In this document: positions 3,988 through 43,507 of the stretch, piece after piece
Numbering within the stretch: position 1 is the stretch's first letter
Layout: each line of letters opens with the position of its first letter
DNA from: Gammaproteobacteria bacterium TMED112
Lineage (GTDB): Bacteria > Pseudomonadota > Gammaproteobacteria > Magnimaribacterales > TMED112
Direction: 5' to 3'
Assembly: GCA_002170245.2 (NCBI GenBank)
Contig: NHFN02000016.1
Span: 1 to 54,282 of the forward strand
Length of the DNA: 54,282 nt
The notes under the pieces: model-generated
Told to the model about the DNA's origin: nothing
What the model saw: only the letters and a program-made list of their open reading frames with translations
Databases searched by the model: none
Position numbers and translations under genes: made by a program

Positions 3988-5657
3988 GTGAATTTGACTA
4001 CATCATTGTAGGTGGTGGATCTGCAGGCTGTGTTCTTGCCAATCGATTAACTGAGAACCCAAATGTTTCTGTTTGTCTACTAGAAACAGGGCCTCCAGAT
4101 AAAACTCCTCTTATTCATGTACCTGCCATGTTTGCATTCCTTCCTGAGACTGAATACTCATACAGATACGAAACAGTACCACAAAAAGGATTTAATGAAG
4201 TTACAGTTACTGAAGGAGCAGCAAATGCGGTTGATTCATTGGGTGGCTCTCATCCAATACCTCAAAGTTACCAAGAAAAAAGAAAAGGCTTTCAACCAAG
4301 AGGAAGAACGCTAGGAGGATCTAGTTCTGTAAATGGCATGGTTTATATCAGAGGTCACAAATGGGATTACGATCATTGGGCTGCTCTAGGAAATGATGGT
4401 TGGTCGTATGAAGATATTTTGCCCTACTTTGTTAAGTCAGAACATAATGAAGCATTGGATGATCAATACCATGGTCAAGATGGCCCACTAAATGTTGCTC
4501 AACTCAGGCATGACAATCCATTCACTAGGTATTTTGTTGAGGCAGGAAGCAAACACTATAAAGCCAATGATGACTTTAATGGAGCCGATCAAGAGGGTGT
4601 GGGCACATACCAAGTTACTCAAAAAAACGGAAAAAGACACAGTGCTGCGGTGGCCTATTTAAATCCGGCAAAAAAGAGAAAAAATTTAACGATTTTGACA
4701 GATACTGTGGTCAATAAAATAAACTTCAAAAATTTAACAGCTGTATCAGTAGAATGTACAACTAAAAATAAACCAAATGAATTACATGCAAAAAAAGAAA
4801 TATTGTTATGCGGTGGTGCGTATGGCTCTCCAACCATATTGCAAAGATCAGGTATTGGCAATGAAAGTTTCCTGCAATCACATAATATTGAATGTCTGTT
4901 AGACCTGAAAGGAGTTGGTGAGAATTTGCAAGATCATATCGATTATATTACTTCTCATAGAGTTGATAGTTGGGAATTATTCGCTAAACCTTTCAAGTCT
5001 TTGAAATTTACTATGAGAGCGCCCTTTGAGTTGATCAAGTTTGTTTTAGCAAGCAAGGGAATGTGGACTTCTAACCTTGCTGAAGGGGGAGCATTTATCA
5101 AAAGCGATGAAAATTTAGAAGTGCCAGATTTACAGCTACATTTTACCGTTGGCATGGTTGAAGATCATGGCCGTACAGAAATGTGGGGCAATGGATTTAG
5201 TTGTCATGTTTGCCTGTTAAGACCTAAGTCTGTTGGGACAGTAAAAATTGCTTCAAAAAACCCTGATGATGATCCTCTTATAGACCCAAACTATCTTTCG
5301 AACGATGAAGATATGAAAGTTATGATTAAGGGATATCGTAAAATGATGGAAATTATGAACACTGAACCACTTGCACAGTTTGATAATGTGAGAAATCCAA
5401 TAAATATTGATGACGATAAAGCTATCGAATCGGCAATCAGAGCTAGGTCAGATACTATTTACCACCCAGTGGGAACGTGCAAAATGGGAAATGATGGCAT
5501 GGCTGTTGTCGATAGTAATCTTAAAGTTAGAGGAGTTAAAAATCTAAGAGTAGTTGATGCTTCAATAATGCCGACTCTAATAGGTGGCAATACAAATGCT
5601 CCTGCTATTATGATTGCAGAAAAGGCAGCAGATTTAATAAAACAAGATGCAACCTGA
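3984..5657 (+). CDS. GMC family oxidoreductase (choline/alcohol dehydrogenase-like flavoprotein)
   Basis: DYIIVGGGSAGCVLANRL FAD-binding motif, PRGRTLGGSSSVNGMVYIRG, C-terminal HPVGTCKMG and VVDASIMPTLIGGNTNAPAIMIAEKAAD. Confidence 0.93.
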   Translation: MSEFDYIIVGGGSAGCVLANRLTENPNVSVCLLETGPPDKTPLIHVPAMFAFLPETEYSYRYETVPQKGFNEVTVTEGAANAVDSLGGSHPIPQSYQEKRKGFQPRGRTLGGSSSVNGMVYIRGHKWDYDHWAALGNDGWSYEDILPYFVKSEHNEALDDQYHGQDGPLNVAQLRHDNPFTRYFVEAGSKHYKANDDFNGADQEGVGTYQVTQKNGKRHSAAVAYLNPAKKRKNLTILTDTVVNKINFKNLTAVSVECTTKNKPNELHAKKEILLCGGAYGSPTILQRSGIGNESFLQSHNIECLLDLKGVGENLQDHIDYITSHRVDSWELFAKPFKSLKFTMRAPFELIKFVLASKGMWTSNLAEGGAFIKSDENLEVPDLQLHFTVGMVEDHGRTEMWGNGFSCHVCLLRPKSVGTVKIASKNPDDDPLIDPNYLSNDEDMKVMIKGYRKMMEIMNTEPLAQFDNVRNPINIDDDKAIESAIRARSDTIYHPVGTCKMGNDGMAVVDSNLKVRGVKNLRVVDASIMPTLIGGNTNAPAIMIAEKAADLIKQDAT

Positions 5658-38103: not shown

Positions 38104-41296
<3,193 letters not shown>

Positions 41297-41300
<4 letters not shown>

Positions 41301-43507
41301 GATTGTGCTAGCTCCATTGCTTGCTCAACATCTACAGACACAACTTTCGATACCCCCATATCTCTCATTGTTACTCCAAGTAAATGAGTGCTTTTTTCCA
41401 TTGAAATTTTATTATGTGTAACAAATATAAATTGTACTTTTTCTGACATTTCATTAACTAAATTTATAAATCTTGCGGTATTTTCATCATCTAATGGAGC
41501 GTCAACCTCATCTAATAAACAAAATGGCGCTGGATTTATTGAGAATAATGAGAATACAAGAGCCAAAGCTGTTAAGGCTTTCTCTCCACCTGAAAGTTGA
41601 GAAAGTTTTGTATTCTTTTTGCCTGGCAATCTAGCCATGAGCAATAAACCTGAATCCTCAGATTTATCTAAAAGATCTAATTTACAAAAACCACCACCAA
41701 ATAGCTTAGGAAACATATCCTCAAGATGTTTGTTGACTGCATTTAAACAGTCATGAAAGGACTTATTAGACTCTCGATCTATTTTTTTAATTGCCTCATC
41801 TAACTTATTTAATGAAATCTCTAATTCTTCAATCTGACCACTTAAAACTTCCTGCCTTTTAACTTCAGCTTCAAGTGTTTCTGGTGCTGCAAAGTTAATA
41901 GGTCCTAAATTCATTATCCTTTTTTGAAGTTTTTCTAAATCTATAATAATTTCTTCTCTCTCTCCCTCTATGTCTTTTATATCTCCATAAGTTGCAAGTT
42001 TCTCCTGTTTTTCTTTTACATCTATTTCAATACTTCTTTTATTGAGCTCCTTCTCATTTCGCTGATAAAGTATCCGCTCTTTCTCTGTTTCAAGTTTTGT
42101 AATTTCTGCTTCAAATTCCCTTAATTCTTCATTTGCTTTATCTTGATTTGCTTTTAATTCCATAACTTTAAGTTCTTGATTTTTTCTTAACTCAATAAAA
42201 CTGGTTAATTCAGATTTTTCTTGATTCAAATCTTTTTTTAGAATGTCTATCTCAGAAATAATTTGCTTATTTCTTTCAACAAATTGTAATTTTAAAGAAT
42301 CAATCTTTTCTGAAGCATCGTCACTTTGGCCTTGGCCTATTTTGAAACCTTTTTTCCAGAAATTTTTAAAACCTCCTATTAATGTTTGTTTGTCGCTTGA
42401 TGTTAATTCGGCCTCAATTTCTGAAAATAATTTTTGAGCTTCTACTTTTATATTCTCTAATGTTTCAGAATTTAATTCATTCGTATCTTTATCATTTCCT
42501 TGTAATTCTTTAGAAAGTTCTTCCAGGTTTGCAATATTTTTTTTCTCTTCAGTCTTTAGGTCGTCAATTCTTGAATTTACTGTTCTTTCTTTTTCTTCGA
42601 TTAGAGATATCTTAGCTCCAGCTTCAAAGAAATTCCTTTGTTCTTCCTCGAGCTCTTTTAGGCCCTCCATCAACTTAGTTTTTGCTACATCTCTTTTGGC
42701 AATAAAATTCAATCTATCACCATCTATCTTTTCTAAATCCTTATCTATAGAATCATTTTCTTTTTGTGATTCATTCATTGAAACAAGAAGCGCTTTAAGT
42801 TCATCATTTACAACAAATTTTTGAAATTCCTGTTCTTTAGTCCTGAGTTTCTTGTACCTTGAAGTAAGATTAGCTTCTGCTTTTAATCTTCTGATCGATC
42901 TTTTTACCTCATCTTCTAAATCTTTTAATCTTGAAATATTCTCTGAGGTTCTTCGTATTCTAGATTCTGTTTCTCTTTTTCGTTCTTTATATTTTGATAT
43001 CCCAGCAGCTTCTTCAACATAACTTCTCAATTCTTCGGGTTTTGCTCCTACTAAACTAGAAATTATTCCTTGCTCAATAATTGCGTAACTATTGCCACCC
43101 AATCCAGTCCCCAAAAATAAATCTTGAACATCCCTTCTTCTAGCGACAGCATTATTTATAAAATAGGTAGATTGTCCATCACGTCCCATTTCTCTTTTAA
43201 CACTCACCTCATCAAATTTAAGGTATTCTCCACCAAGAAAATTCTCTGAATTGTCAAAAGATAGTTCAGCTGAGCAATGACTTACGGGTTTTCTTGAGTC
43301 AGAACCATTGAATATTACGTCTTGCAAACTTTCACTTCTTAGACTTTTTGCTGACAACTCTCCTTTCACCCATTTTATAGCATCTATAATATTCGATTTT
43401 CCACAGCCATTTGGACCGACAATACCACACATGATTCCTGGAAAATCAATTTCAATTGGGTCTACAAAACTTTTAAACCCTGCTAATTTTAAGCTTTTAA
43501 GTCTCAT
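41297..43507 (-). CDS. smc: Chromosome segregation protein SMC, unusually short (736 aa), hinge not recognisable
   Basis: Walker A GPNGCGKSN, GTGLGGNSYAIIEQGIISSLV, signature LSGGEKALTALAL, Walker B FCLLDEVDAPLDD, H-loop VTHNK; coiled-coil arms with a short low-complexity middle. Confidence 0.92.

Follow-up and report, generated by a model that had tools for sequence, protein, structure and literature searches.

A short SMC protein without a detectable hinge in TMED112 and other members of the SAR86 order

The smc locus and its partner genes

The window analyzed here is a stretch of 54,282 nucleotides (contig NHFN02000016.1) from the draft genome of Gammaproteobacteria bacterium TMED112, which comprises 1.02 Mb in 20 contigs at 92% completeness. 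On its minus strand lies an uninterrupted smc ORF of 736 aa (41297..43507, stop codon included), with the ATG at 43507 and a stop codon that ends at 41297. The N-terminal half of the ATPase head (residues 1–169; 43001..43507), delimited by SMC_N and by an AlphaFold2 model, contains a Walker A sequence, GPNGCGKS, at residues 31–38 (43394..43417). The C-terminal half (residues 566–736; 41300..41812), delimited by Pfam and AlphaFold2, contains the ABC signature LSGGE at residues 638–642 (41582..41596) and the Walker B sequence LLDEVDAP at residues 664–671 (41495..41518). All three motifs of the split head are thus present and intact, as anticipated in the original prediction, which was made from the sequence alone and described an unbroken 736-aa frame with both heads. 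A run of invariant alignment columns, LGPINFAAPE (residues 534–543; 41879..41908), is presumably the SMC “joint” region.

Downstream of smc are zipA (40659..41300, minus strand; PF04354), which overlaps the smc stop codon, and ligA, encoding an NAD-dependent DNA ligase (38693..40669, minus strand), and upstream is a cytochrome c maturation (ccm) cluster, whose genes beyond CcmH were recognized by eye. The predicted order smc-zipA-ligA was thereby borne out by Pfam. The ZipA is short (213 aa), with a TTG start that overlaps the smc stop region, and only its C-terminal FtsZ-binding domain is recognized by Pfam.

The 736-aa protein is the chromosomal SMC, which had been proposed as probable. It scored 715.3 bits against TIGR02168 (the NCBIfam equivalog SMC_prok_B), above the cut-off of 567.35, and at E ≤ 1 the Pfam SMC_N domain spans residues 3–720. 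MukB was not among its best 25 NCBIfam matches. Because it has no PF06470 hinge, the protein should be considered a variant and not a canonical member of TIGR02168.

The genes for the partner proteins, which the original prediction had proposed to look for elsewhere in the genome, are both present and intact, as complete ORFs of 265 aa (scpA) and 194 aa (scpB) with a 4-base overlap. ParB is also encoded in the TMED112 genome. Two parS-like sites (TGTTC[CT]ACGT[GA]GAACA; L234:4271-4286 and 4901-4916, on G000:C1), each one mismatch from TGTTCCACGTGGAACA, are found 630 bp apart beside recF on a contig that also carries parB; no such sites are expected by chance. We take TGTTCCACGTGGAACA to be the Pseudomonas-type parS. 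A genome-wide search with the canonical B. subtilis parS pattern gave no credible site.

The apex in place of the hinge

No SMC_hinge match was found in the 736-aa protein at E ≤ 1, nor was there any PF06470 match in the whole TMED112 genome at E ≤ 10, which rejects a separate hinge gene acting in trans. A second smc was not found in this genome. The same library detected the hinge in the relatives L060 (E 5e-10) and L107 (E 4e-8), which served as positive controls, and in 191 of 232 genomes drawn from the class Gammaproteobacteria. Some full-length SMCs, such as that of G108 (1171 aa), escape the model, and a lone non-match is therefore weak evidence of absence. The length of the protein is the stronger argument, since only about 62 residues lie between the arms. 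The absence of a recognizable hinge and of a CxxC zinc hook, both noted in the original prediction, therefore stands; CxxC was found neither in the 736-aa protein nor in the apex of any SAR86 SMC collected here.

The extent of the missing part was estimated by comparison with the full-length SMC of L060 (1169 aa). The alignment diagonals had an offset of 0 at residues 1–226 and 281–322, and an offset of 432–433 from residue 523 to the C-terminal end, indicating a net loss of about 433 residues, corresponding to the hinge and about 170 hinge-side coil residues from each arm. Judged from these diagonals, the loss is symmetric, with an apex of about 62 aa in place of the hinge and the removed coil.

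In the AlphaFold2 model (68 sequences, mean pLDDT 76, pTM 0.47), the N-terminal arm is a single helix (residues 170–334; 42506..43000, minus strand), followed by a loop, a helix at 348–365, a turn, a second helix at 370–391 and another loop, after which the C-terminal arm begins at residue 397 and runs to about 565 (41813..42319, minus strand). The predicted arms are thus about 165–170 aa each, in line with the 150–170 aa first estimated, and the C-terminal arm also follows the offset-432 diagonal from residue 523. The apex at the position of the hinge (residues 335–396; 42320..42505, minus strand) is the low-confidence stretch of the model, with a pLDDT of ≈47–66. (The range originally given for the middle of the protein, residues 335–405 at nucleotides 42293–42505, was correct; the strand, not given there, is minus.) The FKNFWKKGFKIG patch falls in the second apex helix, which is predicted to be short and amphipathic (residues 370–391; 42335..42400, minus strand) and carries a conserved FW..G[FY] pattern: 17 of 18 TMED112 sequences have the W, and all 18 have the G-[FY] after it. 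Among solved structures, the closest in fold to the model is 5xei, an SMC head with its coiled coil and joint.

Distribution, selection and origin

Seventeen congeners of TMED112 have a colinear smc whose product is 72–92% identical, which speaks against a chance frame. Matches to records named SAR86 cluster bacterium included two complete chromosomes, TMED112-A1 (CP097968.1), in which the SMC is 732 aa long and 70–72% identical, and D2474-A1-1 (CP097973.1), which likewise has a short smc. The SMCs are 732–736 aa in the TMED112 congeners, 727–732 aa in family f3, 809–810 aa in f4 and 821–827 aa in f2. None of 203 genomes of the SAR86 order had a PF06470 match above the cut-off. Three weak matches were seen among them; the two that were inspected are metallophosphatase (ApaH-like) frames, and the frame of the third is equal to these in length. 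The short, hingeless SMC is therefore an order-wide character of SAR86, which answers the question of whether it is clade-wide. The findings named beforehand as evidence against the prediction, namely a hinge match, a second smc or a full-length relative within the order, were not encountered among the genomes seen.

One f3 genus (g9) has an SMC of 995 aa (L051:458-3442, plus strand; also L052, L053, L180-L183 and L200, with SAR86E among the records), the result of two separate tandem duplications, one of 120 aa in the N-terminal arm (residues ≈209–362) and one of 143 aa in the C-terminal arm (≈495–682). Such separate lengthening of both arms is what a need to keep the two strands paired would predict.

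Outside the order, the SMC frames of other gammaproteobacteria were ≈1165–1440 aa among the matches listed, and a survey of the phylum gave only frames of ≈1140–1360 aa among the matches listed. SMCs with no detectable hinge were also found in family f128 (944 and 927 aa; L101 and L103, genomes G184 and G283) and family f38 (≈935 aa; L106/L115, genome G094), both with genomes of 1.0–1.1 Mb. Another gammaproteobacterial genome of 1.0 Mb has a pseudogene-like smc with about 30 in-frame stops (G214:C1:453174-456645; L100, L119). Contig L198, from a bin named Candidatus Fonsibacter lacus, encodes an SMC of 1169 aa that shares 56% identity with the SAR86 SMC at its N-terminus; the contig is probably gammaproteobacterial and mis-binned.

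When a tree was built from the heads, all 20 rows from SAR86 formed one group (support 99/96), with f128 and f38 placed elsewhere; in this tree, which was built without actinobacterial sequences, the SAR86 SMC groups among gammaproteobacterial SMCs. Hinge loss required three changes on the best tree, and no bootstrap tree had a single change. A common origin of the SAR86, f128 and f38 hingeless SMCs was not rejected by the AU test (p = 0.20). The hinge may thus have been lost independently in f128 and f38, which are both small-genome gammaproteobacterial families.

SAR86 smc is under strong purifying selection. Among four close congeners, dN/dS was 0.038 overall, 0.006 and 0.019 for the half-heads, 0.036 and 0.051 for the arms, and 0.13 for the apex. 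The apex is thus the fastest-evolving part, and in TMED112 the entropy is highest at residues 341–380. This is the reverse of full-length gammaproteobacterial SMCs, in which the hinge has an entropy of 1.69, compared to 1.98–2.0 in the adjoining arms. Family f3 has apex motifs of its own, LSPKEKA..LL..I and ELK.LL..I, and its AlphaFold2 model (mean pLDDT 72) has a helix at 342–360 and a short loop, with the C-terminal arm starting at 367; its apex block at 341–360 varies less than its flanks. When tip profiles were compared between SAR86 families, only f3 and f4 matched, and weakly (E 1e-3). Common descent of all apices was rejected, as only these two are weakly alike. Since the TMED112 apex evolves fastest and has no counterpart in sequence in the other SAR86 families, the FKNFWKKGFKIG patch is at most a genus-level solution.

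Possible mode of action and significance

On balance, we consider it probable that the SAR86 SMC is the motor of a working Smc-ScpAB condensin, in which the apices pair through a short helical cap. According to this proposal, the hinge and ≈170 hinge-side coil residues per side would have been lost symmetrically in the SAR86 ancestor or earlier, while the ATPase head, the joint and arms of ≈165–170 aa would have been retained and closed by a short helical apex. ParB at parS would load the Smc-ScpAB complex, ATP would engage two heads, and ScpA would bridge them. The apices of two protomers would pair via their short amphipathic helices, forming a helical bundle in place of the hinge, and the smaller ring or rod would still translocate DNA, with a smaller reach per ATP cycle because the arms are about half the usual length.

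In B. subtilis Smc, the Rad50 zinc hook can substitute for the hinge with normal growth (PMC5344682), suggesting that the fold of the apex dimerizer is not critical. The same study found that shortening the arms abolished function over a wide range, with short working arms of 253–267 aa (PMC5344682), and the ≈165–170-aa arms of SAR86, which are shorter than these, argue against the helical cap. Natural SMC arm lengths have modes at 238, 341 and 515 aa, with possible minor modes at 163 and 423 aa (Burmann et al., PMC5344682). Also against the cap is the apex itself, which is modeled with low confidence, varies more than any other part of the protein and differs between SAR86 families.

The same features favor the main rival of the helical cap, a dimer held at the heads only, in which the arms act as free levers with a plain turn at their ends, contact is made through the ATP-engaged heads and a ScpA-ScpB bridge, and there is no stable apex contact, as in a RecF- or ABC-like cycle. 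Such a protein may compact DNA by clamping and bridging it and not by loop extrusion. A short apex with no sequence common to the families, evolving faster than the rest, would fit this arrangement, as would the intact ScpAB. However, the apex is constrained beyond the needs of a bare turn, with family-specific amphipathic patterns and motifs; the f3 apex block is less variable than its flanks, and the arms of g9 were lengthened together. We therefore regard this alternative as unlikely. Less probable again is that the apex binds not itself but another protein or DNA, such as a trans-acting hinge substitute or a membrane or replisome partner. The aromatic, basic TMED112 helix FKNFWKKGFKIG and the family-specific apices might be expected of a partner interface, but there is no hinge-like gene in the genome, and no candidate partner was found.

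It is very improbable that the protein is SbcC/Rad50, RecN or another SMC-like ATPase and not an SMC. It does share with SbcC/Rad50 an SMC-like head and an antiparallel arm without the SMC hinge, which is missing from RecN as well, but it has no CxxC hook, it scored only 22–51 bits against the Rad50 models, far under their cut-offs, and 26 bits against RecN (cut-off 407.85), and it has the smc-zipA-ligA neighborhood and heads that fall within the gammaproteobacterial SMC tree. That the frame reflects a collapsed assembly, or a deletion allele or pseudogene derived from a full-length smc, can be dismissed, since, apart from the fragmentation of the draft assembly, nothing was found in favor of this, and the length is kept in the 17 congeners, complete chromosome CP097968.1 among them, CP097973.1 has a short smc as well, single-cell genomes and MAGs agree, and dN/dS is low.

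Compared to the bacterial Smc of Smc-ScpAB (TIGR02168), the SAR86 protein has the same head sequence, joint motif, gene neighborhood, ScpA and ScpB, and colinear head-side arms, but no hinge, arms of ≈165–170 instead of ≈340 aa, and a length of 736 instead of ≈1170 aa. The engineered B. subtilis Smc(zinc hook) and Mini-Smc similarly have shortened arms or a hinge swapped for an unrelated dimerizer, but these are laboratory constructs, and their short working arms (253–267 aa) are longer than those of SAR86 (PMC5344682). Hinge-less SMCs were reported from marine Actinomycetes in 2025 (Sussfeld et al., PMC12153180), and the term “unprecedented” would therefore be too strong. Those proteins, which were placed near the base of the actinobacterial SMC and were not found by the authors beside a regular SMC, also have no hinge, no CxxC and an abundance in the ocean; going by the published description, the SAR86 form would be set apart by its position inside the gammaproteobacterial SMCs and its order-wide occurrence, and SAR86 is not mentioned in that paper (PMC12153180). 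We found no report in the open-access literature that joins SAR86 with the SMC hinge. Thus, while the hingeless kind of SMC was already known, the order-wide gammaproteobacterial form, the variety of apices and the series of arm lengths appear to be new.

SMC proteins are regarded as defined in part by their hinge, and specific jobs are assigned to it and to the long arms in models of DNA loading and loop extrusion. Here, an abundant marine order has kept Smc, ScpA, ScpB and ParB, yet has dropped the hinge and half of the arms. SAR86 may represent a minimal natural condensin with half-length arms and small helical caps that arose anew or were exchanged in each family, with the losses in f128 and f38 perhaps independent, although we hold this broader view only tentatively. 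The SAR86 Smc offers a small natural test system for the essential parts of a DNA-looping machine, and the SAR86 families, with their varied arms and apices and one genus with duplicated arms, are a ready series in which arm length can be compared with the reach of the motor. If the proposal is true, the hinge fold and full-length arms would both be dispensable for chromosome organization in nature.
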